Below, one piece after another: positions 27,864-60,051 of a stretch of 64,000 nucleotides of DNA. The translations under genes were made by a program, and so were the position numbers. Within the stretch, counting starts at the first letter, position 1, and the number at the start of each line of letters is the position of its first letter. The notes below the pieces were generated by a model. That model was given only the letters and a program-made list of their open reading frames with translations. It was not told the DNA's origin and made no database searches. This stretch comes from Geodermatophilus obscurus (GTDB lineage: Bacteria > Actinomycetota > Actinomycetes > Mycobacteriales > Geodermatophilaceae): positions 62,001 to 126,000 of the forward strand of contig NZ_FOWE01000002.1 of the NCBI RefSeq assembly GCF_900115395.1, read 5' to 3'.

Positions 27864-27983
27864 GTCACTCTCCGCATTGACCCGGTGGTGACGCTCTGTG
27901 AGTGTCCTCCGTGCACTGGGGGACGCGCTGCAGGCAAGGGCACCGCGCAGATGCACCGTCCGTGACCGTCGTCCTCCGTGCAC
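27864..27983 (+). promoter_or_regulatory. Leader region of the polysaccharide island with short direct repeats
   Basis: TCCTCCGTGCAC occurs twice (27905-27916 and 27972-27983). GTCACTCT (27864-27871) recurs twice upstream of the secreted-protein gene (33893, 33916). The 165 bp between pth and the first transferase hold no gene. These are candidate cis elements only. Confidence 0.3.
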
Positions 27984-28007
27984 ACGTGGAGTGACGAGGG
28001 GGAAGAC

Positions 28008-33986: not shown

Positions 33987-36900
33987 ATGTCCGCACGCGT
34001 GGGCACCGCACTGAGGCAGGTGGTGGCGGCCGTCCTCGGCCTGCTGCTGACGGCCGGCGTCCTGGGCCTGGTGGCGCCGCGCGCGGCGCTGGCCGACAGT
34101 GCTCCGCTGGAGCCGACCAGCCCGATCAGCCCGATCACGGTCACCGCCGACCCGCTGCCCACGGTGCAGATCGACGGGATCGTCTGGTCGCAGGTCGTCG
34201 TCGGCAACACGGTCTACGCGGCGGGCAAGTTCGAGTACGCCCGCCCCGCCGGGGCCGCTCCCGGCACCCAGCAGGTGCAGCGGAAGAACCTGCTGGCCTA
34301 CGACATCCGGACGGGGCAGCTCGTCCAGTCCTTCGCGCCCGACCTCAACGCCCAGGCGCTGGTGGTGACCGCCTCCCCGGACGGGTCGCGCATCTACGTC
34401 GGCGGTGACTTCACCCGCGCCGACGGCCAGACCCGGTACCGGGTGGCGGCCTACAGCACCGCGACCGGTCAGCTCGTCCCCGGCTTCCGCCCCGCCGTGG
34501 CGGCGCAGGTGCGGGCGATCGTGGCCACCGACACGACGGTCTACCTCGGCGGCTGGTTCACGGCCGTGGGGTCGAGCGCCCGCACGAAGCTGGCCGCGGT
34601 CCGGGCCTCGGACGGCGCCCTCCTGCCGTGGGCCCCGCAGCCGGGAGCCGCCGCCACCGGCGGCAGCAACGACGTCCTGGCCATGGTTCCCGGTGCCGGC
34701 GGCCAGGTGGTCGTCGGTGGGCGGTTCACCTCGCTCAACGGTGTCGCGGCGACCGCGGTCGGTGCCCTGGACGGCGCCTCCGGAGCCGTCCGGCCGTTCG
34801 CGGTCAACCAGCTGATCACCAACCAGGGCGCCAAGTCGGCCGTCTGGAGCCTGTCCACGGACGGGTCCACCGTCTACGGCACCGCCTACGACTACGGCGG
34901 CCCCGGCAACCTGGAGGGGTCCTTCGCCGCGGCGGCCGACGGCGGTGCCCTGAAGTGGGTCAACACCTGCCTCGGCGACTCGTACTCGAGCCACGCCGCC
35001 AACGGCGTGCTGTACCACGCGGGGCACCCGCACGACTGCAGCAGCATCGGCGGCTTCCCCGAGCAGACGCCGCGGGTGAACCAGTTCGCGACGGCCGTCA
35101 GCCTGGCCCCGGCCGGCACCAGCACCTCCACCTTGCGGAACACGAACTTCCGGGGCAAGCCCGCGCCGGCGCTCCTGCCGTGGTTCCCCTCGTTCACCAC
35201 CGGAGCGGTCAGCGGTGCCACGCAGGCCGGCTGGTCGGTCACGGGCAACGACCGCTACGTCGTCTACGGCGGCGAGTTCCCCCGCGTCAACGGCGTCGGC
35301 CAGCAGGGCCTGGTCCGCTTCGCCGTCCCGTCGCTGGCGCCCAACGCGGTCGGGCCGTGGGTCGACGGGGGGTTCACCCCCACCGTCTCGGCGGTCCCCG
35401 GAGCGGTGCGGATCTCCTGGCGCGCGACGTCCGACCGTGACAACGAGCAGCTGACGTACCGGGTGTACCGGGACAGCGCCACCGGCACCCCGGTCTGCAC
35501 GGTCACCCGGCCCTCGACCTGGTGGAACCGGCCGAGCTACGCGTGCTCGGACACCGGCGCGACCGCCGGCGCCCACCGGTACCAGGTGGTCGCCGTCGAC
35601 CCGTGGGGCAACCGGCAGCCCTCGTCCTGGGTGCAGGCCACGGTCGGCAGCGCGGACCGGAGTCCCGCCCGTCCGTACGCGGACCTGGTGGCAGCCGACG
35701 GCGCGCTCGCGCACTGGCCGCTGGGCGAGGCCGCCGGCACGACGGCGTACGACCGGGTCGGCACGCAGGACGCGGCGGTCAACTCCGGCGTCACCCGGGG
35801 CCAGGCCGGCGCCGTCTCCGGCGACCGCGACACCGCGTTCGCCTTCAACGGCAGCACCTCGGCGTTCGTGGCCTCCGGGGCGGCCGTGCCCAGCCCGCGG
35901 ACCTTCTCGGTCGAGGCGTGGTTCCAGACGACCAGCACGACCGGCGGCCGGATCGTCGGCTTCGGCAGCTCGGCCACCGGGACCAGCGGCTCCTACGACC
36001 GGCACGTGTACATGGACGCGGCGGGCCGCGTGCACTTCGGGATCTGGAACGGCGCCCAGCGGCTGGTCAGCACCGCCGGGTCGTACAACGACGGCCAGTG
36101 GCACCACGTCGTGGGCTCGCTCAGCCACCGGGGCCTGGAGTTCTACGTGGACGGCGTGCTCGTCGGCGCCCGTCCCGAGGTCACCTCGGCCAACCCCTAC
36201 ACCGGCCACTGGCGGATCGGCGGTGACAAGACCTGGTCCGGCTCGTACTGGTTCACCGGCCGGATCGACGAGGTCGCCGTCTACCCGACCGCGCTGAGCG
36301 CCCGGGCCGTGGCCGCCCACACCGCCGCGGGGCGGACCGGTCAGGCCCCCAACGTGGCCCCCACGGCGTCGTTCACCGCGGCCGCGGCGGACCTCACCGG
36401 CTCGTTCGACGGCACCGGCTCCACGGATCCCGACGGCCTGGTCGCCGCCCACGCCTGGGACTTCGGTGACGGGACGACCGGCACGGGGGCGAAGGTGACG
36501 CACGCCTACCGGGCAGCCGGCACCTACACCGTCCGGCTGACCGTGACCGACGACGACGGCGCCACGGCCGCCACGACCCGGTCGGTCACCGTGACCGCGC
36601 CGCCGGTCACCGAGCCGCCGGCCCCCGGCGTCCTGGCCGCCGACGCCTTCGAGCGATCGGTCGCCTCGGGCTGGGGCACCGCGGACAGCGGGGGTGCGTG
36701 GACGGTCACCGGAGGGGTGTCGAACGCCTCGGTCACCGGCGGTTCCGGCAGGCTCGCCGGTGCAGCCGGGCGCGGGGTGGAGGCGGCGCTCGGCGCGGTG
36801 TCCGGACAGGACGTCGTGGTGCAGGCGGACCTCGTCCTGCCGCAGGCCTCGACCGGCGGTGGCACCTACGCCGGCCTCGGCGCCCGGCGGGTGGGCACCA

Positions 36901-38303
36901 GCGACTACCGCACGACGCTGCGCTACCACTCGACCGGTGAGGTCGACGTCCGGCTGGACCGGTACGTCGACGGGGTGGAGACGGTGCTCGGCATCGTCCG
37001 GCTGCCCGAGCGGTACACGCCGGGACGCGCGCTGACCGTGCGCCTCGAGGCCGCCGGCACCGGACCGACCACGCTGCGGGTCAAGGTGTGGACCGCGGGT
37101 ACCGCCGAGCCCTCGGCGTGGACGCTGACCCGCACGGACGCGACCGCCGCGCTGCAGCGACCGGGCGCCGTGTTCGTGCGGACCTACACGTCCGGGAGCG
37201 CGACGCAGACCTCGGTCCTGGTCGTCGACCACCTGCGCGCCGTGCCGGCCGGCACGGCGGTCGAGCCGCAGCCGCAGCCGCAGCCGGAGCCGCAGCCGGA
37301 GCCGCAGCCGAACCAGGCCCCGACCGCGTCGTTCACCGCATCCGGGTCGGGCCTGACCGGCAGCGTCGACGGCACCGGCTCGACCGATGCCGACGGCCGC
37401 GTCGTCGGGCACGCCTGGGACTTCGGTGACGGCGCCACCGGCACCGGGGCGACGGCGTCGCACACCTACGCGGCGGCCGGCACCTACACGGTCCGGCTGA
37501 CCGTCACCGACGACGACGGCGCCACCGGCACGACGACGCGGACGGTGACCGTGGCCGCCCCCGCCCCGCAGCCGCAGCCGGAACCCCAGCCGCAGCCGGA
37601 ACCCCAGCCGCAGCCGGAACCCCAGCCGCAGCCGCAGCCGGAGCCCACCGTGCTGGCCGCCGACGCGTTCGGCCGGGAGGTCGCCTCCGGGTGGGGCCGG
37701 GCGGACGTCGGCGGGAGCTGGAGCACCTACGGCGGGACCGGCGCGGTGTCGGTGACCGCGGGGTCCGGCCGGGTCACCGCCGGCCCGGGGACCAGCGCCG
37801 GCGGCGTGCTCCCCGTGGGGGCGCAGGACCTGGTGGTCCAGGCCCGGGTGACCCTGGACCAGGCGGCCACCGGCGGTGGCACCTGGGTCGTGCTGGGCAC
37901 CCGCGACGTGGGTGGGTCCCGCTACAAGGCCCAGCTGTGGTTCTCCGCCGACGGCCGCGTGCAGGTGGCCCTGCTCCGGGTGGTCGACTGGTCCGAGACG
38001 TGGCTGACCGGCGGCTGGGTGCCCGGCTACGGCACCGCCGGTTCCTACACCCCCGGCACGCCGCTCGACCTCCGGGTCGAGGTGGCGGGGACCGGTCCGG
38101 CGCAGCTGCGGGTCAAGGCCTGGGCCGCGGGGACGGCGGAGCCGGACTGGCAGCTCACCGCGAGCGACGCCACCGCCGCGCTGCAGCGGGCCGGCGGGCT
38201 GCGCGTGGACGTCTACAACGCCCGCTCCTCCACCGGCCCCACGGCCGTGCGCATCGACGACGTCCGGGTGACGGCAGCGGGGGAGACCCCGCCGGCGCGC
38301 TGA
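33987..38303 (+). CDS. Large modular secreted protein (beta-propeller, FN3-like, LamG, two PKD and two jelly-roll modules)
   Basis: 1438 residues. A signal peptide (1 to about 36, ending ALA-DS) shows export. Residues about 50-460 contain repeated VYVGGDFTRADG/VYLGGWFTAVG/VVVGGRFTSLNG units, a beta-propeller-like domain. An FN3-like domain (about 466-551), a LamG/concanavalin module (about 570-781), a PKD domain (791-868; HAWDFGDGTTGTG) and a jelly-roll module (880-1088) follow. Then a Pro-Gln-Glu linker, a second PKD (1110-1189), another linker and a second jelly-roll module (1221-1428). There is no LPxTG or C-terminal membrane helix, so it is released or held by binding to polysaccharide. 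Adhesion or matrix function is inferred. Confidence 0.92.
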   Translation: MSARVGTALRQVVAAVLGLLLTAGVLGLVAPRAALADSAPLEPTSPISPITVTADPLPTVQIDGIVWSQVVVGNTVYAAGKFEYARPAGAAPGTQQVQRKNLLAYDIRTGQLVQSFAPDLNAQALVVTASPDGSRIYVGGDFTRADGQTRYRVAAYSTATGQLVPGFRPAVAAQVRAIVATDTTVYLGGWFTAVGSSARTKLAAVRASDGALLPWAPQPGAAATGGSNDVLAMVPGAGGQVVVGGRFTSLNGVAATAVGALDGASGAVRPFAVNQLITNQGAKSAVWSLSTDGSTVYGTAYDYGGPGNLEGSFAAAADGGALKWVNTCLGDSYSSHAANGVLYHAGHPHDCSSIGGFPEQTPRVNQFATAVSLAPAGTSTSTLRNTNFRGKPAPALLPWFPSFTTGAVSGATQAGWSVTGNDRYVVYGGEFPRVNGVGQQGLVRFAVPSLAPNAVGPWVDGGFTPTVSAVPGAVRISWRATSDRDNEQLTYRVYRDSATGTPVCTVTRPSTWWNRPSYACSDTGATAGAHRYQVVAVDPWGNRQPSSWVQATVGSADRSPARPYADLVAADGALAHWPLGEAAGTTAYDRVGTQDAAVNSGVTRGQAGAVSGDRDTAFAFNGSTSAFVASGAAVPSPRTFSVEAWFQTTSTTGGRIVGFGSSATGTSGSYDRHVYMDAAGRVHFGIWNGAQRLVSTAGSYNDGQWHHVVGSLSHRGLEFYVDGVLVGARPEVTSANPYTGHWRIGGDKTWSGSYWFTGRIDEVAVYPTALSARAVAAHTAAGRTGQAPNVAPTASFTAAAADLTGSFDGTGSTDPDGLVAAHAWDFGDGTTGTGAKVTHAYRAAGTYTVRLTVTDDDGATAATTRSVTVTAPPVTEPPAPGVLAADAFERSVASGWGTADSGGAWTVTGGVSNASVTGGSGRLAGAAGRGVEAALGAVSGQDVVVQADLVLPQASTGGGTYAGLGARRVGTSDYRTTLRYHSTGEVDVRLDRYVDGVETVLGIVRLPERYTPGRALTVRLEAAGTGPTTLRVKVWTAGTAEPSAWTLTRTDATAALQRPGAVFVRTYTSGSATQTSVLVVDHLRAVPAGTAVEPQPQPQPEPQPEPQPNQAPTASFTASGSGLTGSVDGTGSTDADGRVVGHAWDFGDGATGTGATASHTYAAAGTYTVRLTVTDDDGATGTTTRTVTVAAPAPQPQPEPQPQPEPQPQPEPQPQPQPEPTVLAADAFGREVASGWGRADVGGSWSTYGGTGAVSVTAGSGRVTAGPGTSAGGVLPVGAQDLVVQARVTLDQAATGGGTWVVLGTRDVGGSRYKAQLWFSADGRVQVALLRVVDWSETWLTGGWVPGYGTAGSYTPGTPLDLRVEVAGTGPAQLRVKAWAAGTAEPDWQLTASDATAALQRAGGLRVDVYNARSSTGPTAVRIDDVRVTAAGETPPAR

Positions 38304-38353: not shown

Positions 38354-38463
38354 TCGTCCCGGGGTGCCCCGCAGGGGTGATGACGCCACCGGGGGCCCGG
38401 CGCACGATCGTCCGGCCGCCGCGCCCTCCGAGCGCCGGGCGGCGCGCCGGCAGGAGGACCACC

Positions 38464-38514
38464 ATGACCCGTCGCCCCGCGACACCGACGACACGCACCG
38501 GCAGGCCGGGATGA
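38464..38514 (+). CDS. 16-residue leader peptide before the GT2-GT4 gene
   Basis: ATG 38464 follows AGGAGG with a 6-base spacer, the best ribosome binding site in the area. It reads MTRRPATPTTRTGRPG and stops at TGA 38512-38514, overlapping the ATG of the fusion glycosyltransferase (ATGA). The downstream ATG has only a weak site, so translation is probably coupled. The peptide itself is Thr/Arg/Pro-rich and unrecognised. It could equally be a non-functional upstream frame. Confidence 0.5.
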   Translation: MTRRPATPTTRTGRPG

Positions 38515-40673
38515 CGGCGACCGCTCCCGTCGGGCCCGCTCCCGCCGGTGCCGGCCCCGCCACCGGGGGCCGGCTCGGGGTCGTCGTCGTGTCGTACGGC
38601 AGCTCGGAGCTGCTCCGGCGCACCCTCGCCCCGGCCGGCCTGCCCGGGCCCGACGTCTCCGTCGTCGTCGTCGACAACCTCTCCACCGCGGCCGAGCGCG
38701 CCGCCGTCCGGGAGCTCGGGGCCGCCAGCGGCTGGCACGTCGTCGCCATGCCGGACAACCGCGGGTTCGGCGCGGCCTGCAACGCCGGCGTCGCCGCCGC
38801 CCGGGAGCTGGGCTGCAGCACCTTCCTGTTCCTCAACCCGGACGCCGTGATCACGCCCGCCGTCGTCGCCGAGCTGCGGGCGCAGAGCCTGCGGGAGCCG
38901 ATGTCGCTGATCAGCCCGCGGCTGCTGACCTCCGACGGCGCGGTGGCGTTCCTCGCCGCCCGCACCGACCTGCGCGACGGCCGGGTGCGGCGCCGTCCCG
39001 CGGCCGCCGGGCCCCGCACCACCGACCCCGGCGACTGGCTGTGCGGCGCCTGCGTCGTGGTGCACGACGAGCTGTTCTCCCGGATCGGCGGGTACGACGA
39101 GGACTACTTCCTCTACTGGGAGGACGTCGACCTGGGCTTCCGGGCGGTCGCGGCCGGCGCCACGGTGGTCCTGCGCGAGGACCTGGTGGCCGTCCACGAC
39201 GAGGGCGGCACCCACGGGGAGCGCCGCCGGGGCCAGGCCAAGTCCGCCCTGTACTACCGCTACAACTGCCGCAACCGGCTGGTCTTCGCCGCGCGCAACC
39301 TCGACCGCCGCACGCTGCTGCGCTGGGTCCTGACCACGCCTGCGGTCAGCTGGCAGATCCTGCTGCGCGGTGGACGGCGCCAGCTGGTCCAGGACCCGTC
39401 GCTGCTGTGGCCGGCGGTGCGCGGCTCGCTCGAGGGCCTGGCCCGCGTGCTGCCGGCCCTCCTGCGCGGTCCGCGACGGCGGCCGGCCCGCCCGCGGGTG
39501 CTCGTGGTGCACCCCGGTGCCGAGCTCTACGGCTCCGACCGGGTGCTGATCGCGTCGGTCGAGTCCCTGCTGCACCGCTCCGACGTCACCGTCGCGCTCC
39601 CCGGGCACGGGCCCCTGGTCGCGGAGCTCCGGAGCCGCGGCGCCGACGTCGTCGTCCGGCGCATGCCCGTGCTCCGGAAGGCCGCGCTGCGGCCGGCCGG
39701 CGTGCTGCGCCTCCTCGCCGACACGGTGCTCGGCCTGCCGTCGGCGCTGGCGCTGCTGCGCCGGGCGTCGACGGTGTACGTGAACACCACCGTCCTGCCG
39801 GGCTGGCTGCTGCTGGCCCGCCTCACCGGCCGCCGGGTCGTCTGCCACGTGCACGAGGCCGAGTGGCCCGGCCCCGCGGTCCTGCAGCGGCTGCTCCTGC
39901 GGACGCTCCTCGCAGCCCACACCGTGGTCGCCAACAGCCGGTTCACCGCCCGCGCGGTCACCGGCCTGGTCCCGGCGCTCGCCGGCCGCACCACCGTGGT
40001 CCCCAACCCGGTGCCCGGGCCGCCCGACGTCGTCCCCGCCCGCCTGCGGCCGACGGGTCCGGCCCGCCTGCTCTTCGTCGGCCGCCTCTCGCCCCGGAAG
40101 GGCCCCGACGTCGCCGTCCGCGCCCTCCGCGCCCTGCTCGACCGCGGCGTCGACGCCAGGCTCACCGTCGCGGGCTCGGTCTTCGAGGGCTACGAGTGGT
40201 TCGCCGAGGAGCTGCGCGCCGGGATCGCCGCGTCCGGGCTGACCGGCCGCGTCGACCTCACCGGCTTCCGCGACGACGTGTGGCCGCTGCTGCAGGAGGC
40301 CGACGTCGTGCTCGTCCCCTCCACGCTCGACGAGTCCTTCGGCAACGCGGCCGTCGAGGCGGTGCTGGCCGGCCGGCCGGTCGTCGTCAGCGACCTGGGC
40401 GGTCTGCGCGAGGCCGTCGACGGGTATGCGGCAGCCCGGATCGCCGAACCCGGTGTGCCGGAGTCCTGGGCCGACGCCGTCGCCGACCTGCTCCGCGACT
40501 GGCCGGCCGTGCGCCGGGCGGCCCTGGCCGACGCCGCCCGCGCGGCCGACCGGCACGCCGTGGGCCGCTACGCCGCCGACCTGCTCGGCGCCACCGACCT
40601 GCTCGACGCCACCGACCTGCCCGGCGCCACCGCGGCCGTGGTGCCGGCCGGCTCCCGGGCGGTGGCCCGGTGA
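38511..40673 (+). CDS. Fused glycosyltransferase: GT2 (WbbL-like) plus GT4
   Basis: 720 residues with two complete catalytic domains. The GT2 half (about 20-290) has VVVVSYGSSELLRRTL, VVVDN, the WbbL-type DNRGFGAACNAGV and FLFLNPDA, and EDYFLYWEDVDLGFR. The GT4 half (about 320-690) has VHPGAELYGSDRVLIASVES, VCHVHEAEW, VVPNPVPGPPDV, FVGRLSPRKGPDVAVRA and the E-x7-E-like PSTLDESFGNAAVEAVLAG. The C-terminus ends in ATDLLDATDLPGAT repeats. Two sequential sugar additions by one polypeptide are likely. It overlaps the leader peptide (ATGA) and the next GT2 gene (GTGA). Rhamnose transfer by the first half is a family-level guess. Confidence 0.92.
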   Translation: MTATAPVGPAPAGAGPATGGRLGVVVVSYGSSELLRRTLAPAGLPGPDVSVVVVDNLSTAAERAAVRELGAASGWHVVAMPDNRGFGAACNAGVAAARELGCSTFLFLNPDAVITPAVVAELRAQSLREPMSLISPRLLTSDGAVAFLAARTDLRDGRVRRRPAAAGPRTTDPGDWLCGACVVVHDELFSRIGGYDEDYFLYWEDVDLGFRAVAAGATVVLREDLVAVHDEGGTHGERRRGQAKSALYYRYNCRNRLVFAARNLDRRTLLRWVLTTPAVSWQILLRGGRRQLVQDPSLLWPAVRGSLEGLARVLPALLRGPRRRPARPRVLVVHPGAELYGSDRVLIASVESLLHRSDVTVALPGHGPLVAELRSRGADVVVRRMPVLRKAALRPAGVLRLLADTVLGLPSALALLRRASTVYVNTTVLPGWLLLARLTGRRVVCHVHEAEWPGPAVLQRLLLRTLLAAHTVVANSRFTARAVTGLVPALAGRTTVVPNPVPGPPDVVPARLRPTGPARLLFVGRLSPRKGPDVAVRALRALLDRGVDARLTVAGSVFEGYEWFAEELRAGIAASGLTGRVDLTGFRDDVWPLLQEADVVLVPSTLDESFGNAAVEAVLAGRPVVVSDLGGLREAVDGYAAARIAEPGVPESWADAVADLLRDWPAVRRAALADAARAADRHAVGRYAADLLGATDLLDATDLPGATAAVVPAGSRAVAR

Positions 40674-42493: not shown

Positions 42494-44011
42494 TCAGCCC
42501 CGCCGCGCCAGCATCTGCCGGCCCCAGGCGGCGACGCCGGCCAGGTCCCGCCGGATCGGGGGGACCAGCGCGGCCAGGCCGTAGACCGCCAGGCCCGCGG
42601 CGAGGCCCGCGGCGAGCCGGCCGACGGCGGGCCAGCCGGACGCCAGCTGGACCGCCAGCGCGCACACCGCGCCCGCGGTGACCGCGCACCCCGCGATCCG
42701 CAGCGCCCCGCCGAGCAGGGCGCGCACCGGGATCACCGTGGTGCGGGAGAGCCACCACAGCGACAGCGGCCACTCCAGCACGGCCGCCGTCGCGTAGCCG
42801 GCGGCCACCCCGACCACCCCGTGGCGGCTGCCCACGGCGATGCAGACCGCCTTGAGGGCCATCGTCAGGAGCGTGTAGCGGAACAGCGCGCCGGCCAGCC
42901 CGCGGGACAGGTAGACCCAGTAGCCGACGAAGGACAGCGTCTGGGCGCTGCCGGCGACGGCCAGCAGCGCCAGCACGGGGGCGACCTGCGCCCAGCGGTC
43001 GCCCAGCACGACCTCGACGAGGGGTCCCGCGGCACCGGCCGCGAGCCCCATGGCGGCGACCAGCGTGAAGCCCAGCGCCAGTTGGCTGCGGCGCAGGTAG
43101 TCACCGGCGCGCCCGAGGTCGTCCTGGAGCCGCGAGAGCACGGGGACGGCGACCGTCGTCGCCGGTGAGCGCAGCTGGTTGAGCGGCGTCATCAGCAGCT
43201 GGAAGCCGCGGTTGTAGACGCCGAGGGCGGCTGGGCCGGCGGTCAGCCCCAGCACGAGGTTGTCGAGGTTGTTGCCGAGGTAGTGGACCAGGTGGGTGCC
43301 GGTCAGGCCGCTGCCGAACCGCACCAGGGGGCCCAGGCCCACACCCCGCCGCGGCCGCCCGGGCACCCAGCGCCCCGACGCCGCCACGAGGACGAGCACG
43401 ACCGTCCCCTGCACGATCTGCTGGGCGACCAGCGCCCAGTACCCGGCCCCGGCCACGGCGGCGCCCACCGCCACCGCGAAGGACACCACCTGGGCAGCCA
43501 GGTCGACGCCGGCCACCGCACCGAAGCGCAGCCGGCGGAGCAGGCCGGCGCGGTACTGGGCGGCCAGCCCGTTGAGCAGGAAGACCACGGACAGGCAGCG
43601 CACGACGTCGACGAGCTCCGGCTGCCCGAACGCGGCGGCCACCGGCTCGGCGGCCACCAGCGCGAGTGCTGACAGCAGCACCCCTGCCGCGACGTTGAGC
43701 CAGAAGAGGCCGTCGCGCTGCGCGGTGGTGAGCTCGGGAGCACGGATCGCCGCGGTCGACAGGCCCAGGTCGCGGAACACCTCGCCCACGCCCACCACGA
43801 CGAGCCCGACGGCCAGCAGGCCGTAGTCCTCGGGGCTGAGCAGGCGCGCCAGGACGGTGACCGACGCCAGCTGCAGCACGATCCGCGCGCCCTGCCCGGC
43901 CAGCGTCACGCCCGCTCCGCGCGCCGCCACGCGACCGAGGTCGGTCCGGCCGGGCGGGGGAGCGTCTCCGGGGGCGAGCGGACCGCCCGAGGGGTCAGTG
44001 GCCGCCGACAC
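42494..44011 (-). CDS. Wzx-type lipid-linked oligosaccharide flippase, copy 1
   Basis: MOP-superfamily membrane protein of 505 residues and about 14 helices. The early motif ARLLSPEDYGLLAVGLVVVG and the later LGVYNRGFQLLMTPLNQLRS are typical of Wzx/PST exporters (polysaccharide_synt_3-like). It would flip the undecaprenyl-linked repeat unit to the outer face. GTG 44011 starts 17 bp inside the end of the GT2 gene, on the same strand, so the two are coupled; an upstream in-frame codon at 44086 is less likely. Its counterpart at 60044 is of the same family but clearly different in sequence. Confidence 0.92.
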   Translation of the reverse strand: MSAATDPSGGPLAPGDAPPPGRTDLGRVAARGAGVTLAGQGARIVLQLASVTVLARLLSPEDYGLLAVGLVVVGVGEVFRDLGLSTAAIRAPELTTAQRDGLFWLNVAAGVLLSALALVAAEPVAAAFGQPELVDVVRCLSVVFLLNGLAAQYRAGLLRRLRFGAVAGVDLAAQVVSFAVAVGAAVAGAGYWALVAQQIVQGTVVLVLVAASGRWVPGRPRRGVGLGPLVRFGSGLTGTHLVHYLGNNLDNLVLGLTAGPAALGVYNRGFQLLMTPLNQLRSPATTVAVPVLSRLQDDLGRAGDYLRRSQLALGFTLVAAMGLAAGAAGPLVEVVLGDRWAQVAPVLALLAVAGSAQTLSFVGYWVYLSRGLAGALFRYTLLTMALKAVCIAVGSRHGVVGVAAGYATAAVLEWPLSLWWLSRTTVIPVRALLGGALRIAGCAVTAGAVCALAVQLASGWPAVGRLAAGLAAGLAVYGLAALVPPIRRDLAGVAAWGRQMLARRG

Positions 44012-44987
44012 GCGCGTCCCCACCGACCGGTTCCGACGACGGCGCCGGGGGCCGCCCGTACTCGTGGGGGACGAACCCCAGGGCACCGACGACCAGGCCG
44101 CTGTAGCTGGCCAGCGTGCCTACCGCCGCGCCCTGCGCACGGGCGTCCCGGCGCACGGAGGCCGCGGCGAGCGCGAGGAGCGCCAGCGACAGCCGGACCG
44201 CTGCCCGGGCCAGGATCCCGGCGCGCGTGCGCAGCCGGCCACCGGGCCCGGCGGCCAGCGAGACCTCCGCGCGGCTCCACGAACCGGCGGAGCGGAAGCA
44301 GCGGCGGACGACCCAGGACCGGGTGACCCGCTCGGCCGGGACGGACTCGACGGCCTCGGCCTCGTCGCACCAGCGCAGCTCCCCGCCCCGGTGCACCAGC
44401 TGGTGAGTGAACAGGGTGTCCTCGCCGCCCGTGAGCCCCAGCCGCTCGTCGAAGGCGAGGCCGAGGTCGCGCACCCGGCGGACGTCGAGCAGCAGGTTGC
44501 CCGCGCCGGCACCGCCGACCAGCGAGCCGGTGGTCGCGCGCCGCCGGTCGAAGACCCCGGTGCCGGCCACCCAGGCGCTGGCGGGCACCAGCAGCTGCGA
44601 GGACACCGGACCGGCGACGGCCGCACACCCCCAGGAGCGCCAGGCCCCGACCAACCGCTCCAGCCAGCCGGGGCAGGGCAGCTCGTCGTCGTCGATGAAG
44701 ACGAGGACCGCGGCCCCGCGGGCCTCGGCCAGGGCGCGGTTGCGGGCCGCCGAGATGCCCGGCCGGGGTTCGTGCACGTACCGGACGCCGCGGTCGGCCC
44801 AGCCGAGCACGACGTCGGCCGCGCTCCCGGCGGGGTCGTTGTCCACGACCAGCACCTGCGCACGGGGGGTCACCGTCGCGGCCTGGCCCACCAGCTCGCG
44901 CAGCAGCGCCGGCAGGTGCCCGGCGCGCCGGTAGGTCAGCACGGCGACGACCGTCCCCGCCGTGCCGCCGTCGTCGGTTCCGTCCAC
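43995..44987 (-). CDS. GT2 family glycosyltransferase, paralogue of 40670
   Basis: 330 residues, GT-A fold. VVAVLTYRRAGHLPALLREL opens the domain; VLVVDNDPAGS, PGISAARNRALAEARG and FIDDDELPCPGWL (DxD) follow. The acceptor region is GGEDTLFTHQLVHRGG and WCDEAEAVESVPAERVTRSW. C-terminal hydrophobic helices (about 260-305) suggest membrane association. GTG 44987 is chosen from GAGGGG eight bases upstream. It lies between the Wzz-Wzy fusion (80 bp upstream) and the flippase (overlapping), so all three form one minus-strand operon. Confidence 0.9.
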   Translation of the reverse strand: MDGTDDGGTAGTVVAVLTYRRAGHLPALLRELVGQAATVTPRAQVLVVDNDPAGSAADVVLGWADRGVRYVHEPRPGISAARNRALAEARGAAVLVFIDDDELPCPGWLERLVGAWRSWGCAAVAGPVSSQLLVPASAWVAGTGVFDRRRATTGSLVGGAGAGNLLLDVRRVRDLGLAFDERLGLTGGEDTLFTHQLVHRGGELRWCDEAEAVESVPAERVTRSWVVRRCFRSAGSWSRAEVSLAAGPGGRLRTRAGILARAAVRLSLALLALAAASVRRDARAQGAAVGTLASYSGLVVGALGFVPHEYGRPPAPSSEPVGGDARVGGH

Positions 44988-45067
44988 CGCGTGCTCCCCT
45001 CGGGCAGGTCCTCCTGCTGCATCGGCCGGGTGTCGCCGGTCCTGGAGCCCTCCGGCGCCGTCGCGGG

Positions 45068-47536
45068 TCACGCAGCCGCTCCCAGCGGCCGGCGGGCCGG
45101 CAGCGGGCCGGCGCCGGGGGAGTCGTCGTCCTCGGCGGGACGGCGCGGCAGCAGCAGCAGTCCGAGGGCCAGGACGAGCGTGTCGGTGTTGCTCGCGATG
45201 GGGCCGAAGAGCAGTCCCCAGAGGGCCATCGGCAGGAGCAGGCACACCAGGCCGGACGCCGTGCGGCGGCGCGCCTGCTCGGCGAACCCGGTCACGACCA
45301 GCGCGCCCATGAGCAGGCCCAGGAGCACCCCGGCCGGTCCGAGGTCCGCCCACAGGTCCGCGAGGATCGAGTGCAGCTCCACCCCGCCCTGGAGCAGGTA
45401 GTTCTGCACGTAGGACTCGGCGGTGGGGATGTTGGTGACCGCGATGCCGGCCTTGCCGACCAGGACGTCCCGGCTGTCCGGGACGATCCCCAGCCCGAAA
45501 CCGAGCGGGTGCGTCTGCGCCAGCGCCCACGTCGTCGCCCACTCCGGGCGGCCGCCGAGGATGAGCGAGCCGGTCTGGGCGATCTGCACGGCCGTCCGCT
45601 CCTGGATCTCGGCACCCAGGGCACCGGCCAGCATCAGCCGCGTGAGGACCCAGTACCCCGCGGCCGCGAGGGCGGCGAGGACGGGCAGGACCAGCCAGCG
45701 CCGCGGACCCGGCGCCGGGCCGGGCCGTCCCGGGCGCTGCTGCCAGAGGACGAGCGCGCCGGCCACGACGCAGAAGCCGAAGGCGCTGCGGGCGTCGTTG
45801 GTGACGTTGAGCAGCGCCAGCACGCCCAGGACGGCCAGGGTGGGCAGCGGCCGCCCCCGGCGGACGGCGAGGGCCAGCGCGATGACCATCAGCGGGGCCG
45901 ACAGCTGGAACTTCCACAGGTTGTCCGTGCCGGGCGCGCCGAGCAGCCCCGTCGCCAGCATCCCCAGACCGAAGGCCACCCCGAGCACCGGGACCGGGAG
46001 GACGGTGCGCGCCCACAGGAGAACGCCGACCCCACCGACCGCGGCCAGCACCGTCGAGGTGCGCACGGAGGCCCCGTTGAGGACGAACCCGTGGTCGGCG
46101 GAGTGCGCCCAGGCCAGCAGTGCACCGGACAGGACGCCGACGGCGGCGAGCGCCAGCAGTGGCACCGGCCCGCGCGTCCGGCGCACCACCGGCAGCCACA
46201 GCGGGAGCAGGGCCACCGCGGCGACCAGGCCGGTCACGAGGCCCATCGGGAGCGGCCTGGTGAAGCCGGTCATGGCGACGGCCAGGACCGCCACGCCCGT
46301 GGTCGCCCCCGACGCCCGGTGACCGGCGCCGACGGTGGCCGCGGCACCGGGACGGCCGTCGAGCCGCCACGTGGCGTGCCCGCGGGCGGCGGCCCGCAGC
46401 GCCGTCCGCAGGCCGGCTCGCGGCGGGAGCAGGCCGTCGACCACCACGCCCGCCAGCGGCACACCGGACGCGTCGGCTGCCGACGTGCTCGCCGCCAGCT
46501 CCGCGAGCGTGGTGCGCCGGCCGTCGGCCACCACGACCACGCCGTCGAGCGGCCCGGCGGCGAGCAGCTGATCGGGTGAGTCGACGGCGACCACGGCCGG
46601 CCCCGTGGTGACCAGCTCCGCGGCCAGCTCCGTCGTGGTGGTGGCCGCCCCCAGGAGGGCGACACGGGGGGCGCGGTCGGTGGCGGAGGGCGTCACGGGG
46701 GCCGTCACGGGGGCCGTCGTGGGGGCCGTCGCCGTCGCCCGGGCGGGGACGGCGGAGCGCAGGGCCAGCCGCAGCCGGGCGACCTCCTCGGCCCGTTGGG
46801 GCAGGGAGGCCGGTCGGCGGGCGGAGGAGCGGCGCCCGTGCCGCGGGACGGCTGCCGGCAGCAGCCCCAGCACGGGAGCGCCGGTCACGCGGGCCACGTC
46901 CGCACGGCCGCGCACGCGGGGCCGGGCCAGCTCGGCCAGGCCGGCGGCCAGGCCCGCCGCGCCGGCGCCTGCGAGTGCCCCGAGGGCGGCCAGGAGGACG
47001 GTCGGGCGGTCCGCCGCGACCGGGGGCGTGGCGTCCCGGACCGGGGTCACGCGCAGCTGCGGACCGTCGCTGCCCGCGAACAGGGTGGCGGCGCGGCGCA
47101 CGACCTCCGCGCCGACCGCCCGGGCGACCGCGGACGCCTCGGCCGGCGTCGGCCGTGTCGCGGTGACGCGCAGGACGCTGACGTCCTCCTCGACGACGAC
47201 CTCGAGGCCGTCGGCCAGCTCGCTGGGGGACTCCCCGAGCCCGAGCCCGGCGCCGACCCGCGTGAGCACCGTCGAGGAGGTCGCGAGCGCGGCGACCGAG
47301 GGCAGCACGGTCGTGCGCACCGCGGCGGCCGAGGAGGGGTCCTGCGGTCCCGCGACGACGGCGGCGTCGACGTAGAGCGAGACGCGCGACTCGAACGCGT
47401 CGGGGGTCAGCAGCCCGACGGTGCTCCCGACCAGCAGGCCGGCCGCCGCCGCCGCGACGACTCCCACCCAGCGGCCGGCGACGGCCCGGGCGTAGTCCCT
47501 GAGCTCCACGTACCCCTCCTCGTGTCCGGCGGTCAT
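45068..47536 (-). CDS. Fusion of Wzz-like co-polymerase, remnant kinase-like domain and O-antigen polymerase/ligase-like domain
   Basis: 822 residues in one unbroken frame. Residues 1-200 are a Wzz/co-polymerase module: start YVELRDYARAVAGRWVGVV, helix 1 (22-44), periplasmic domain, helix 2 (about 178-200), then the PVLGLLPA motif found after Wzz. Residues about 290-370 resemble a tyrosine-kinase (Wzc/CpsD) core that lacks the P-loop: VALLGAATTTTELAAEL stands where GEGKST should be, while DGVVVVADGRRTTLAEL and LAGVVVDG look like kinase C-terminal strands. Residues about 412-797 hold ten or so helices with RPEWATTWALAQTHPLGFG and HSILADLWADLGPAGVLLG, the O-antigen ligase/polymerase pattern. 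ATG 47536 has a weak ribosome binding site. It is divergent from the true kinase. Confidence 0.87.
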   Translation of the reverse strand: MTAGHEEGYVELRDYARAVAGRWVGVVAAAAAGLLVGSTVGLLTPDAFESRVSLYVDAAVVAGPQDPSSAAAVRTTVLPSVAALATSSTVLTRVGAGLGLGESPSELADGLEVVVEEDVSVLRVTATRPTPAEASAVARAVGAEVVRRAATLFAGSDGPQLRVTPVRDATPPVAADRPTVLLAALGALAGAGAAGLAAGLAELARPRVRGRADVARVTGAPVLGLLPAAVPRHGRRSSARRPASLPQRAEEVARLRLALRSAVPARATATAPTTAPVTAPVTPSATDRAPRVALLGAATTTTELAAELVTTGPAVVAVDSPDQLLAAGPLDGVVVVADGRRTTLAELAASTSAADASGVPLAGVVVDGLLPPRAGLRTALRAAARGHATWRLDGRPGAAATVGAGHRASGATTGVAVLAVAMTGFTRPLPMGLVTGLVAAVALLPLWLPVVRRTRGPVPLLALAAVGVLSGALLAWAHSADHGFVLNGASVRTSTVLAAVGGVGVLLWARTVLPVPVLGVAFGLGMLATGLLGAPGTDNLWKFQLSAPLMVIALALAVRRGRPLPTLAVLGVLALLNVTNDARSAFGFCVVAGALVLWQQRPGRPGPAPGPRRWLVLPVLAALAAAGYWVLTRLMLAGALGAEIQERTAVQIAQTGSLILGGRPEWATTWALAQTHPLGFGLGIVPDSRDVLVGKAGIAVTNIPTAESYVQNYLLQGGVELHSILADLWADLGPAGVLLGLLMGALVVTGFAEQARRRTASGLVCLLLPMALWGLLFGPIASNTDTLVLALGLLLLPRRPAEDDDSPGAGPLPARRPLGAAA

Positions 47537-47751
47537 CTTGACCCCGCCCGGACGCCGATCGGCCCGTCCTGCGCGGATCGGGGTCCGGGCCTGACCCCAA
47601 GGGGTGGCGTCGGCCGCCGAGCGCCGGTCCGGGCCGGGTCCCGGCCGCAGACTCCGGACCGACACCCCGTCCGCAGCACCGACGGACGGGCCGACGCGGT
47701 CACCGGTCGTCGCACACGTCGCGCGACGGTGGCAGACGAGGAGGACCAGCC

Positions 47752-49191
47752 GTGAGCACCCGAGGGCCGTTGCACGTGCTCCGCCGGAGGTGGGTCCAGA
47801 TCTCCGGCGTCACGCTGGTGGGCCTGCTGGGCGGACTGACGTACGCCTGGACCGCACCGGTCACCTACGAGTCCACGGCCGGCGCCTTCTTCTCGCTGGT
47901 GTCGGGGAGCACGGCCTCCGACCTGGTGCAGGGGTCCACCTACGCGCAGAACCAGGTCGAGTCCTTCGCCCAGCTCGCGGTCACGCCCGAGGTGCTGCAG
48001 CCGGTGATCGACCGGCTGGACCTGCCCGAGAGCCCGGCCGCGCTGGCCCGCGCCGTGGAGGTCACGGTGCCGACCGGCACGGTGATCGTCGAGGTCACCG
48101 TCACCGACGGCTCCGCCGAGCGCAGCGCCGAGCTCGCCGACGCCGTCATCACCTCGCTGTCCGACGTCGTCGAGCGCATCGCCCCTCAGGACGAGGCCGG
48201 CGACCCGACCGTCGTCGCGACGACCGTGACCCCGGCGGAGGTGCCGTCCGCCCCGGCGTCGCCGGACGTGCCGCTCGTCCTCGCCGCCGGCCTCGTCGCC
48301 GGGCTGCTCGCCGGGCTGGGCCTGGCCTGGCTGCGCGAGACCCTCGACACCCGCATCGCCGACGCGGAGGACGTCGCCGAGGTGACCCCGCTGCCGGTGC
48401 TGGGCAACGTGCCCAGCTGGCCACGGCGGACCGGCCGCGTGGTGGTCGCGGCCGAACCGTTCAGCCAGGCGGCGGAGAGCTTCCGGCAGCTGCGCACGAA
48501 CCTCCAGTTCCTGCGCGTCGCCGAGGGCGGCTCCGGGGGCACCGGCGCCCACGTGGTGGCCGTGACCTCCTCCTTCTCCGGCGAGGGCAAGTCCACCGTC
48601 TCGGCCAACCTGGCGACCACGCTGGCCGAGACCGGGGCCCGCGTCCTGCTCCTCGACGCCGACCTGCGCCGCCCGACCGTCGCCGGCGTGCTCGGCATCG
48701 AGGGCGGGGTCGGGCTGACCACCGTGCTGGCCGGACAGGCCGCCCTGGACGACGTGGTGCAGGAGTGGGGGTCGGCCGGCCTGGCGGTGCTCCCCTCGGG
48801 ACCGGTGCCGCCCAACCCGGCGGAGCTGCTCGGCTCCCCGGCGATGCGCGCCCTGCTGGCCGGGCTCCGCACGCGCTACGACCACGTCGTCGTGGACACC
48901 GCTCCGGTGCTGCCTGTGGCCGACGCGAGCGTGCTGTCCCGTGTCGTCGACGGGGTGGTCGTGGTGGCCAACGCGCGCCAGGCGCGCCGCCGCCACCTGG
49001 GGCAGAGCCTCGACGACCTGTCGAAGGTCTCCGCCCGGGTGCTCGGGGTGGTCCTCAACCAGGTCCGCCGCGACGAGGAGTCCTACAGCTACGGCCGGGA
49101 CGAGGACCGGGCGCAGCCTGCCGACGGCGACGTGCGGTCCGGCTCCGGGCGGGTCGGGCGCGCCCCGGTGGGCCGGCAGCCGGTCCGGTGA
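47752..49191 (+). CDS. Polysaccharide tyrosine autokinase (Wzc/CpsCD-like)
   Basis: 479 residues combining a Wzz domain (helices about 16-34 and 174-194) with a cytoplasmic BY-kinase. Walker A is SSFSGEGKST (273-282), Walker A' is LLLDADLRRP (about 299-308), and Walker B-like VVVDTAPVLPVADA. RTNLQFLRV before the P-loop is the oligomerisation/activation motif region. The C-terminal Tyr cluster is reduced to two tyrosines (SYSYGRDED). GAGGAGG before GTG 47752 is a strong site. It overlaps the phosphatase gene by GTGA. It should control chain length by phosphorylation-dependent assembly with a polymerase, here perhaps the fusion protein encoded divergently. Confidence 0.95.
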   Translation: MSTRGPLHVLRRRWVQISGVTLVGLLGGLTYAWTAPVTYESTAGAFFSLVSGSTASDLVQGSTYAQNQVESFAQLAVTPEVLQPVIDRLDLPESPAALARAVEVTVPTGTVIVEVTVTDGSAERSAELADAVITSLSDVVERIAPQDEAGDPTVVATTVTPAEVPSAPASPDVPLVLAAGLVAGLLAGLGLAWLRETLDTRIADAEDVAEVTPLPVLGNVPSWPRRTGRVVVAAEPFSQAAESFRQLRTNLQFLRVAEGGSGGTGAHVVAVTSSFSGEGKSTVSANLATTLAETGARVLLLDADLRRPTVAGVLGIEGGVGLTTVLAGQAALDDVVQEWGSAGLAVLPSGPVPPNPAELLGSPAMRALLAGLRTRYDHVVVDTAPVLPVADASVLSRVVDGVVVVANARQARRRHLGQSLDDLSKVSARVLGVVLNQVRRDEESYSYGRDEDRAQPADGDVRSGSGRVGRAPVGRQPVR

Positions 49192-51705: not shown

Positions 51706-53244
51706 ATGGTCCTCCACGACGTCGGTGTCCCGACCCCCCGCACCGAGGGCACGCCACCCGCCTCGCCGCCGCGGGCCGGTGGCTTCGACCGGCCGGTCGC
51801 GCCGAGGACCGCGGCCGGCCACGGTACCGACACGGGCCGGCGCCGGCACCCCCTCTGGCTGCGCCGCTACCAGGCCGCCACCGTCGTCTCGGACCTGCTC
51901 GCCGCCCTCGCTGCCGGGGCCCTGGCCCACGCCGTCCGATTCGGCACCGAGGTCGTGCCCTCGGCCCTCCAGGCGCTGAGCGCCTTCCCGGTGCTGTGGG
52001 TCGCCGTCGTGGCGCTCGCCGGCGGGCACCGCAGCGCCCACCTCGGCACCGGCACCGAGGAGTACCGGGCGGTGCTGCGTGCCGGCGTCCAGTGCCTGGC
52101 GGTGGTCGCCCTCCTCTCGTACGCCCTCATGCTCTCGGTCTCGCGCGGCCTGGTCGTCATCGCGCTGCCCGGCGCCGTGCTCCTCAGCGCGGTCGGCCGG
52201 CACGTGCTGCGGCGCCGGGTGCACCGGCTGCGGGCCCGCGGTTCCTGCCTGCGGACGGTGGTCGCCGTCGGCCGCTCGATCCCGGTCGCCGACCTCGTCC
52301 GCCAGCTCGACCACGACCGGCACTGCGGGATGACCGTGCTGGCGGCGTGCGTCCCCGACGCCCCCGGGAGCGGTGTCCTGGCCGGGACCGACGTCCCGGT
52401 CCTGGGCGACCTGCAGGCCGCGGCGGCCGTGGCGCGCCGCCTCGACGCCGACACGGTCGCCGTCACCAGCTCCAGCGAGACCGCGGCGGTCTACCTGCGC
52501 CGGCTGTCCTGGGAGCTCGAGGGCAGCGGGATCGAGCTGCTCGTCGCGCCGGGCCTGATGGAGGTCGCCGGCCCCCGCATGCACGTGCGCCCCTTCATCG
52601 GGCTGCCCCTGGTGCACGTGGAGGAGCCGGTCTTCACCGGGCCCACGCGGCTGGTCAAGGAGTTCATCGACCGGACGGCGGCCGCGCTGGCCGTGGTCGT
52701 GCTGCTCCCGCTGCTTCTCGGCGTGGCCCTCGCGGTCCGCCTCGACAGCGCCGGCCCGGTGCTGTTCCGCCAGCAGAGGGTGGGGCGGCTGGGCACCGAC
52801 TTCACGATGCTCAAGTTCCGGACGATGGTGGTCGACGCCGAGCAGCGCCGCGCGGAGCTGGCCGACCGCAACCGCAACGGCGACGGGCCGCTGTTCAAGG
52901 TCGCCGACGACCCGCGGGTCACCCGCGTCGGCCGCGTGCTGCGCCGCTACTCCCTCGACGAGCTGCCGCAGCTGCTCAACGTGCTCACAGGGCGGATGTC
53001 GCTGGTCGGCCCGCGGCCGCCGCTGCCCGACGAGGTGGCCGTCTACGACGACTCCGTCGCCCGGCGGCTGCTGGTCAAGCCCGGGCTGACCGGCCTCTGG
53101 CAGGTGTCGGGCCGCAGCGACCTGACGTGGGACGAGGCGGTGCGGCTGGACCTGCGGTACGTCGAGAACTGGTCCCTCGCGCTCGACCTGCAGATCGTCT
53201 GGAAGACCTTCTACGCCGTCACCCGGTCGTCGGGCGCCTACTGA
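51706..53244 (+). CDS. Polyprenyl-phosphate sugar-phosphate transferase, copy 2
   Basis: 512 residues, same architecture as the gene at 28008: ~60-residue Pro-rich N-terminus, four helices (about 60-160), Rossmann-like domain, membrane helix (about 325-350) and catalytic domain (FRQQRVGRLGTDFTMLKFRT, RRYSLDELPQLLNVLTG, SLVGPRPPLPDEV, KPGLTGLWQVSGRSDL). The C-terminal half is almost identical in motif wording to copy 1, whereas the N-terminal helices differ. GAAGGGGGGCGG before ATG 51706 is the ribosome binding site. It begins the third large island segment and precedes the amino-sugar operon by 85 bp, suggesting it loads the sugar made there (inference). Confidence 0.95.
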   Translation: MVLHDVGVPTPRTEGTPPASPPRAGGFDRPVAPRTAAGHGTDTGRRRHPLWLRRYQAATVVSDLLAALAAGALAHAVRFGTEVVPSALQALSAFPVLWVAVVALAGGHRSAHLGTGTEEYRAVLRAGVQCLAVVALLSYALMLSVSRGLVVIALPGAVLLSAVGRHVLRRRVHRLRARGSCLRTVVAVGRSIPVADLVRQLDHDRHCGMTVLAACVPDAPGSGVLAGTDVPVLGDLQAAAAVARRLDADTVAVTSSSETAAVYLRRLSWELEGSGIELLVAPGLMEVAGPRMHVRPFIGLPLVHVEEPVFTGPTRLVKEFIDRTAAALAVVVLLPLLLGVALAVRLDSAGPVLFRQQRVGRLGTDFTMLKFRTMVVDAEQRRAELADRNRNGDGPLFKVADDPRVTRVGRVLRRYSLDELPQLLNVLTGRMSLVGPRPPLPDEVAVYDDSVARRLLVKPGLTGLWQVSGRSDLTWDEAVRLDLRYVENWSLALDLQIVWKTFYAVTRSSGAY

Positions 53245-58987: not shown

Positions 58988-60051
58988 GGTTCCACCGCGC
59001 ACTCCCCCTGAGCGCGCCGGCCCGGGTGAGCGTCGTCGTCCCCTGCTACCGCTACGGCAGGTACCTGCACGACGTCGTCGCCAGCGCCCTGGACCAGCCC
59101 GGCCTGGACGTCGACGTGCTCGTCGTCGACGACGCCTCACCGGACGACTCCGCGGCGATCGCCCACGCCATCGCCGAGGAGGAGCCCCGCGTCCGGGTCG
59201 TCGTCAACGACCCGAACCTCGGCCACATCGCCACCTACAACCGCGGCATCGCGGAGGTCACGGGCGACTACGTCGTCCTGCTGTCCGCCGACGACCTCCT
59301 GACCCCGGGGTCGCTGACCCGGTCGGTGGCCCTCATGCAGGCGCACCCGTCCGTCGGCCTGGCCTACGGCTATCCGCTCGAGTTCCGCGGACAGCCGCCC
59401 ACCACGCGCAGCGGTCCGGCGACGTGGATCACCTGGCCCGGACACGAGTGGCTGCACGTCTTCTGCCGCCGGGGCAGGAACCTCGTCTTCAACCCGGAGG
59501 TGGTCCTGCGCCGGGAGGTCATGGCCGAACTGGGTGCCTACGACCCGGCCCTGCCGCACGGAGCGGACATGGACCTGTGGATGCGGACCGCACTGCACTG
59601 GGACGTCGGCCGGGTCGTCGGGCCCGAGCAGGGGCTCTACCGGCAGCACGACGACAACATGCACGTCGAGTCCTTCGGCGGCGTCCTCGACGACCTCGTG
59701 GGTCGCCGGCTGGTCTTCGACCGGGTGCTCCTGGTCTCGGCGAGGGACGTCGTGGCGCCTCCGGAGAGACGGCGACTGCACGCGACCGCGTACCGGGCGC
59801 TCGCCCGGGAGGCCGTCGACCTGGCGATCCGCACCGTCGACGGCGGACACCCGGAGGCCGCCGTCCGCTGCAAGCAGTACCTGGCGTTCGCCGAGGAGAC
59901 CTGGCCGGCCGTCCGGCACGGGCGGGCCTGGCAGGCCGCCGTCGGCCGCCTCGGCGGCGGGTCGTCCGCGCTCCGTGCACGGGCCGGCGAGACGGCACGA
60001 CAGGTCCGCGACAGCGCACGGTGGCGCGTCTGGCGGCGCCTCGGTGTCTGA
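58984..60051 (+). CDS. GT2 family glycosyltransferase
   Basis: 355 residues, GT-A fold. VSVVVPCYRYGRYLHDVVAS opens the domain, VLVVDDASPDDSAAIA is the donor-binding strand, GHIATYNRGIAEVTGDYVVL leads to LSADDLL (DxD-like). HGADMDLWMRTALHWDVG, then a His-rich YRQHDDNMHVESFG acceptor loop. The last 80 residues are helical and basic. It is a clear paralogue of 61558 (same HxHDMxxWxR and YRxHxxNM-type features). GAGGTG before GTG 58984 provides a ribosome site. It overlaps the flippase gene by 8 bp. Confidence 0.9.
   Translation: MRFHRALPLSAPARVSVVVPCYRYGRYLHDVVASALDQPGLDVDVLVVDDASPDDSAAIAHAIAEEEPRVRVVVNDPNLGHIATYNRGIAEVTGDYVVLLSADDLLTPGSLTRSVALMQAHPSVGLAYGYPLEFRGQPPTTRSGPATWITWPGHEWLHVFCRRGRNLVFNPEVVLRREVMAELGAYDPALPHGADMDLWMRTALHWDVGRVVGPEQGLYRQHDDNMHVESFGGVLDDLVGRRLVFDRVLLVSARDVVAPPERRRLHATAYRALAREAVDLAIRTVDGGHPEAAVRCKQYLAFAEETWPAVRHGRAWQAAVGRLGGGSSALRARAGETARQVRDSARWRVWRRLGV

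Follow-up and report, generated by a model that had tools for sequence, protein, structure and literature searches.

A 64,000-nt window of Geodermatophilus obscurus DNA (contig NZ_FOWE01000002.1, forward-strand positions 62,001 to 126,000) carries on its minus strand a gene that encodes, in a single chain, a polysaccharide co-polymerase (PCP; Wzz-type chain-length) module, a region related by profile evidence to bacterial tyrosine kinases (BY-kinases) and a Wzy_C-like membrane module (Table 1). The continuous frame of 822 codons that had been described in the original prediction was confirmed: on the minus strand, 45068-47536 is open over 822 codons plus a stop, while the plus-strand translation of the same interval contains a stop. 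The GC content at third codon positions (GC3) is 0.92-0.98 in every 60-codon window, and this uniformity gives no sign of a frameshift between the modules. The arrangement of three modules in one chain is conserved in 13 genomes and is well supported, but the start of the chain had to be revised, so that the product likely comprises 813 rather than 822 residues; the mass calculated for the full-length product is 81.9 kDa.

Table 1. Features of the fusion gene, the divergent kinase gene and their surroundings (positions within the window).
Feature	Position	Strand	Basis or remarks
Fusion gene (PCP, pseudo-kinase, Wzy)	45068..47509	minus	813 codons from the likelier start GTG 47509; open frame, GC3, start by comparison, 13 genomes with the same fusion
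PCP module	46847..47509	minus	residues 10-230 of 822: transmembrane stretch ~23-43, extracytoplasmic 44-179, transmembrane stretch ~180-200, juxtamembrane stretch
Putative pseudo-kinase region	46382..46801	minus	residues 246-385; best-kept beta-alpha-beta at residues 329-371 (46424-46552)
Wzy_C-like polymerase/ligase module	45143..46303	minus	residues 412-798; 12 predicted transmembrane helices, large conserved outside loop
-10-like hexamer CAAGAT of the fusion gene (candidate)	47535..47540	minus	overlaps ATG 47536; conserved [CG]A[ACT]GAT
Palindrome TGACCCNNNNGGRTG	47592..47606	plus	candidate shared operator in the divergent intergenic region
-10-like hexamer CAGACT of the kinase gene (candidate)	47648..47653	plus	conserved columns in intergenic alignment; sigma-70 scan negative
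Intact PCP-2a BY-kinase (Wzz plus CpsD/CapB-type autokinase)	47752..49191	plus	Walker A, A', B and EX2RX2R; 2 Tyr in last 60 residues
GT2-like glycosyltransferase gene	44087..45000	minus	between fusion and flippase, borders approximate; by-eye likeness to syntenic L003:12426-13436
Wzx-type flippase (Polysacc_synt_3)	42494..44086	minus	downstream of the fusion, same strand; Pfam E=2.2e-72

Comparison with the relatives indicates that GTG 47509 (residue 10 of 822) is more likely to be the start of the fusion gene than ATG 47536. This GTG is preceded by the run GAGGAGGGG, and its column is matched by the starts of 9 of the 12 relatives, with a tenth (G013) lying within two residues; G235 starts 15 residues earlier, and G020 is cut, so that its first residues are missing. 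It should be noted that the start codons of the relatives were picked by us and that the start chosen for G235 may lie too far upstream. An in-frame stop is found at most 12 codons upstream of the matching start in 4 of the 12 relatives (11 examined, G020 being cut). Furthermore, ATG 47536 sits inside a hexamer, [CG]A[ACT]GAT, which 11 of 12 loci retain at a distance of 29-38 nt before the start; the ATG itself exists in 9 loci, out of frame in 7 and in frame in 2. We read this hexamer and the conserved CAGACT before the kinase gene as candidate -10 elements; a sigma-70 scan found no promoter. All residue numbers given here follow the count of 822 from ATG 47536.

The N-terminal module has the two transmembrane (TM) stretches typical of PCPs, with hydropathy peaks at residues 24-42 and 180-198 flanking an extracytoplasmic domain, and in every uncut fusion the PCP module is complete, both TM stretches included. 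The products of the fusion gene and of the neighbouring kinase gene share 32% identity over residues 15-375 of the fusion, and profile-to-profile alignment (hhalign) of the fused PCPs with the PCP halves of the neighbouring kinases gives P=1.9e-36. The NCBIfam models TIGR03007, TIGR01006 and TIGR03017 match within residues 84-241, all of them below their cut-offs, and Pfam Wzz is matched at E<=0.01 in 7 of the 13 fusions, the window protein not being among them. A Foldseek search with a full-length AlphaFold model, which was built from two sequences, has a mean pLDDT of 42 and is usable for the PCP module only, matched KpsE, Wzc and FepE with probabilities up to 1.00, none of them at E<=0.001.

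The cytoplasmic region between the two membrane modules varies in length from 150 to 211 residues among the 13 fusions. As had been predicted from the window sequence, it lacks Walker A, the pattern being found in 0 of 13 fusions, and since Walker A is absent, a working BY-kinase within the fusion is ruled out. No Walker A' was seen in the alignment of the fusions, and of Walker B at most a trace is left (D-S-P in the window protein and in G013), a stretch that HMMER sets against the D-T-P of VpsO. EX2RX2R is the oligomerisation motif of BY-kinases; by inspection, it is missing from the helix in all 13 fusions. A Tyr tail is likewise absent: the entire cytoplasmic region contains 0-1 Tyr in every one of the 13.

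A relation of this region to BY-kinases is suggested by profile comparisons. In an hhalign comparison based on all 13 sequences, the last beta-alpha-beta of the kinases aligned with residues 329-371 of the fusions (P=1.6e-7, probability 93.9, score 51.3), while 60 column shuffles scored at most 23.5 and the reversed profile 12.5. In a profile search of PDB sequences with the middle region, the BY-kinase VpsO ranked first (E=9.5e-4), and BY-kinases made up 9 of the 26 rows at E<=10; when the PCP was included, they made up 12 of the 12 rows at E<=1 (best 0.0016). The single window protein gave no match among PDB sequences at E<=1. An AlphaFold model of the domain is an ordered alpha/beta structure with a core pLDDT of about 70-86. 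We take the middle region as a compact, catalytically dead BY-kinase remnant, while the kinship by profile evidence is confined to the last beta-alpha-beta and the predicted fold does not single out kinases.

For the C-terminal module, Pfam Wzy_C matches residues 572-739 (E=1.7e-6, 28.3 bits for the whole protein), and the family is matched at E<=0.001 by 8 of the 14 aligned members. Hydropathy and the positive-inside rule give 12 TM helices, with Lys plus Arg accounting for 25.8% of residues in inside loops versus 4.1% in outside loops across the 13 fusions; the TM borders are author-chosen, and two regions, the outer domain of the PCP (6.5%) and the cytoplasmic part (14.2%), are omitted from these sums. 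Based on this asymmetry, the large Wzy loop (residues 634-724) is predicted to lie on the same outer face as the PCP domain. Residues R583, R663, E665, H722 and D727 are invariant in all 14 aligned rows, which include a separate Wzy-type protein of Actinomyces oris.

A survey of Geodermatophilaceae identified this Wzy in 14 of 112 genomes, 13 of which encode the fusion, spread over 4 of the 12 genera of the family; the fourteenth, G189, has a stand-alone Wzy with a frame of 433 residues. The 13 include G020, in which the fusion is cut at a contig end, and G235 (locus L046), whose middle region is seen in the alignment and has no tblastn match. At the level of the order, 22 of 397 genomes matched the Wzy profile, 12 of them from the family and 10 from others. 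The survey thus placed the fusion in 13 genomes of the family, while none of the ten other-family Wzy genomes of the order looks fused, as judged by frame length and for seven of them also by eye; long frames in G028 and G105 resemble, by eye, read-through into a non-coding frame. The PCP query gave no match in those seven loci; as it likewise failed to detect the PCP part of their kinases, the absence of a further PCP there is weak evidence. A draw across the phylum yielded matches in 2 of 396 genomes, the window's own and G086; since at most 7 candidates per genome were scored in the phylum search and 4 in the last order search, rare fusions elsewhere could have been missed. No relative was found in viral contigs or phages, and one plasmid record with a separate Wzy was found. 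In the phylogenetic trees, the fused PCPs form one clade (96/96), as do the fused Wzys (99/99), which fits a single origin. The fusion appears to be restricted to the family and probably arose once. The PCP tree does not nest the fused PCPs among the kinases of the family, and so gives no support to an origin by recent copying from the kinase gene next door.

The intact kinase that had been noted to be encoded divergently next door is indeed present, and a divergent PCP-kinase gene adjoins the fusion in 12 of 12 testable loci. The product of 47752-49191 matches Pfam Wzz, CbiA and AAA_31 as well as the tyrosine autokinase family TIGR01007 above their cut-offs. All 12 adjacent kinases retain GK[ST], DxDxR and the Walker B Asp; the four kinases taken from fusion-free loci all carry E in place of the initial D of A'. 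EX2RX2R is found in 15 of 16 kinases, with the exception, that of G188, having DFFRQLA. In locus L032, where the kinase gene (genome G099) lies near a stand-alone Wzy, Walker A reads AKS for GKS, and this protein is possibly another kinase-dead PCP. Divergence of the two genes is also seen outside the family in L030, where the kinase is divergent beside a stand-alone Wzy gene with match edges 461 bp apart; in other loci, the spacing is 1.7 kb (L032, divergent), 1.2 kb (L028, same strand) and 6.3 kb (L031).

The distance between the starts of fusion and kinase is 193-270 bp across the 12 loci and 242 bp in the window. Within this intergenic region, the palindrome TGACCCNNNNGGRTG could be aligned in 12 of 12 fusion loci, 11 times exactly and once, in G182, with T for G; the pattern was derived from the same 12 intergenic regions in which it was counted. 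In the whole 64-kb window, it occurs at 1 site versus 0.11 expected, and a second, exact match lies elsewhere in the G182 locus (L043:16527). It was found in none of ten distinct stretches without a fusion, L030 being the one stretch among them in which kinase and Wzy genes are closely spaced and divergent. Since the conserved palindrome is shared between the divergent genes, fusion and kinase genes are probably switched together, i.e., co-regulated.

Judged by its neighbours, the fusion is part of a predicted Wzx/Wzy surface-polysaccharide cluster, with the flippase and a glycosyltransferase gene following on the same strand. The same cluster contains another fusion, GT2 and GT4 domains in one 769-aa open reading frame (38364-40673), which by eye resembles L003:16707-18968; a 1438-aa protein with laminin-G-like and PKD domains is encoded just before the cluster (33987-38303). 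The window holds two priming sugar transferases (27978-29513 and 51706-53244) and two flippases (42494-44086 and 59534-61561), which suggests that two polysaccharide clusters lie side by side. Some 4 kb beyond the window (locus L005), a stand-alone Wzy_C protein is encoded that lies above the Pfam cut-off (G000:C11:130116-130499). The gene right after it (L005:2152-2979) is Wzz-like by eye and likewise stands alone, and the two represent a second polysaccharide system on this contig.

Known systems resemble the fusion in parts. The neighbouring kinase represents the Wzc-type PCP-2a autokinases, in which a PCP is likewise followed by a cytoplasmic alpha/beta domain, with the sequence identity given above; unlike these, the fusion is without Walker A, EX2RX2R and a Tyr tail, and its chain runs on into a Wzy-like module with 12 TM helices. 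On a plasmid of Actinomyces oris, a Wzz-type and a Wzy-type gene are ordered as in the fusion and lie 6 bp apart (WP_101559774.1 and WP_254654152.1, L004:6852-8891); this Wzy shares 31% identity with the fused module, but the pair consists of two genes with no kinase-like region between them. In the enterobacterial common antigen system of Pectobacterium, WzyE lies inside the WzzE ring at about 8 PCP per Wzy (PMC10030265). There, as proposed here, PCP and Wzy polymerase form one membrane complex, but WzzE and WzyE are two proteins, and neither a kinase nor a pseudo-kinase is involved. According to PMC12004946, BY pseudokinases include EcpK of Myxococcus xanthus and HfsB of Caulobacter crescentus, and single chains of PCP and pseudokinase, SMc01795 for example, are cited. 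These share with the fusion a kinase-like cytoplasmic PCP partner devoid of catalytic motifs, whereas none is named there as joined to a polymerase, and EcpK is a separate protein. Adding a polymerase to a PCP-pseudokinase chain is, as far as these sources extend, the new step, PCP-pseudokinase single chains being known already. The original prediction knew of no described protein of this layout, and this is consistent with the open-licence PMC papers searched, in which no Wzz-Wzy or Wzc-Wzy fusion was recognised; the relevant passages of PMC7310880 and PMC13432762 describe none either.

We propose that the fusion protein is a phosphorylation-dead, polymerase-bearing PCP subunit, a family-restricted PCP-2-type/Wzy fusion, that co-assembles with the adjacent active PCP-kinase. 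While the architecture is well supported, we infer the mixed ring, and the proposal in its entirety seems to us to have about an even chance of being correct. The fused PCP would take a place in the oligomeric ring of the neighbouring PCP-kinase and could neither phosphorylate nor be phosphorylated on a Tyr tail. Covalent attachment would bring the polymerase to the ring, probably in few copies, as suggested by the ratio of about 1:8 for WzyE to WzzE, with WzyE inside the ring (PMC10030265). Active kinases would then assemble and disassemble around the fused subunit and thereby set the chain length. The kinase-like region may have been kept as a packing piece against its kinase neighbours rather than as an enzyme, a role for which the scaffold function proposed for EcpK (PMC12004946) provides a precedent. 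As eight fused polymerases would hardly fit one ring, a mixed ring appears to be the simplest model.

The original prediction had suggested that the fusion hard-wires chain-length control to polymerisation, which is a fair inference from the gene structure, and that the decayed kinase domain acts as a docking site for the real kinase. The latter is possible, with co-assembly of both PCP modules in one ring being at least as likely. A more specific version, in which the fusion is a keyed subunit, i.e., a single non-phosphorylatable member in the neighbour's ring that fixes a small number of polymerases per ring, is tentative, and we would sooner expect it to fail than to hold.

Several observations weigh against the proposed mixed ring or the assignments on which it is built. 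The best NCBIfam score of the window protein's PCP module is 31.4 bits versus a cut-off of 278.85, and the Pfam profile search that had been suggested for the window protein brought a Wzy_C match but no Wzz match, the former staying below the curated cut-off of 31.7 even for the module alone (29.8 bits). The supposed kinase resemblance holds in profile searches, yet only for the last beta-alpha-beta: the P-loop half of the kinase is unrecognisable and cannot be aligned in the middle region (hhalign score 13.5), and a Foldseek search with the domain model returned generic alpha/beta folds, with no BY-kinase among the best 50 of 1304 matches and none at E<=0.001. In two fusions (G007 and G235), the cytoplasmic part has merely 150 residues, as a spacer might have. 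Regarding the partner, EX2RX2R is missing from the kinase of G188, whose last 60 residues contain 0 Tyr, compared with no more than 2-3 in the other eleven; tails so poor in Tyr weaken a model that relies on Tyr-tail cycles. In the PCP tree, the fused sequences fall outside the kinase PCPs of the family as well as those from four other loci, the branch joining these kinases reaching only 81/57, and 98 of the 112 family genomes are without this Wzy at the threshold used. Furthermore, BY pseudokinases have been argued to be independent of active kinases (PMC12004946), an argument that lends no support to a mixed ring and possibly counts against one. The oligomer, its stoichiometry and the polymerase activity of the fusion are predictions.

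Among the alternatives, a ring formed by the fusion alone, with a polymerase on each subunit outside the ring and the kinase in a separate ring or serving another polymer, is unlikely in our view. The complete PCP module of every uncut fusion would allow such self-sufficiency, and the separation of the fused PCP clade from the kinase PCPs is what separate assemblies would permit. However, the kinase gene is adjacent in all 12 loci with a conserved intergenic site in common, and by our reasoning from the WzyE/WzzE complex (PMC10030265), the inside of such a ring would have no room for eight 12-TM domains.

We regard it as similarly improbable that the middle region is vestigial, a spacer in decay that does no more than link PCP to Wzy. 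While the missing Walker A, the 0-1 Tyr and the variable length of the region in the 13 fusions agree with decay, as does the low mean pairwise identity in the linkers (17-25%) and in residues 313-328 (22%), residues 329-371 reach 44%, about the level of the PCP module (38-50%). In addition, the pN/pS of the middle region, determined from the single pair of window and L003, is 0.55 (PCP 0.61, Wzy 0.46), and the ordered domain model does not suggest a mere linker.

Somewhat less probable still is that the C-terminal module is a ligase that moves finished chains to an acceptor, the separate Wzy past the window end being the polymerase. Pfam describes Wzy_C, a family that covers polymerases too, as O-antigen ligase, and the genome has the second, stand-alone Wzy_C above the cut-off with its Wzz-like gene. 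However, this second Wzy, which adjoins its own Wzz and for which a second flippase is at hand (59534-61561), may serve another polymer. The fusion adjoins its own wzx and kinase genes, and a polymerase is the more plausible partner for a chain-length module in a single chain.

That the middle region is an unrelated Rossmann-like domain instead of a kinase remnant is more doubtful again. The Foldseek result is what such a domain would give, with receiver, dethiobiotin-synthetase and other alpha/beta folds among the best 50 of 1304 matches; against this stand the first rank of VpsO in the PDB profile searches, an hhalign score far above those of the shuffles, and a place after the PCP that is that of the BY-kinase. 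Finally, an assembly or frame artefact that joins neighbouring genes, conceivable in a window of 76% GC with long spurious frames, is rejected with near certainty by the 13 genomes and by the codon bias of a gene without stops and with GC3 above 0.9 throughout.

The fusion bears on the wider question of how a PCP ring controls Wzy and polymer length. As a natural PCP-Wzy product, the single chain fixes the pairing of PCP and Wzy and limits their geometry, with both on the same predicted outer face and the link from PCP TM2 to Wzy passing through the cytoplasm, which makes it a good object for structure work. Since a kinase-dead PCP and a live PCP-kinase are paired across the family, the idea of a mixed ring is testable. 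If the keyed ring were true, the fusion would provide a built-in route to a Wzy to PCP ratio of ~1:8, which WzyE and WzzE reach without a covalent link.

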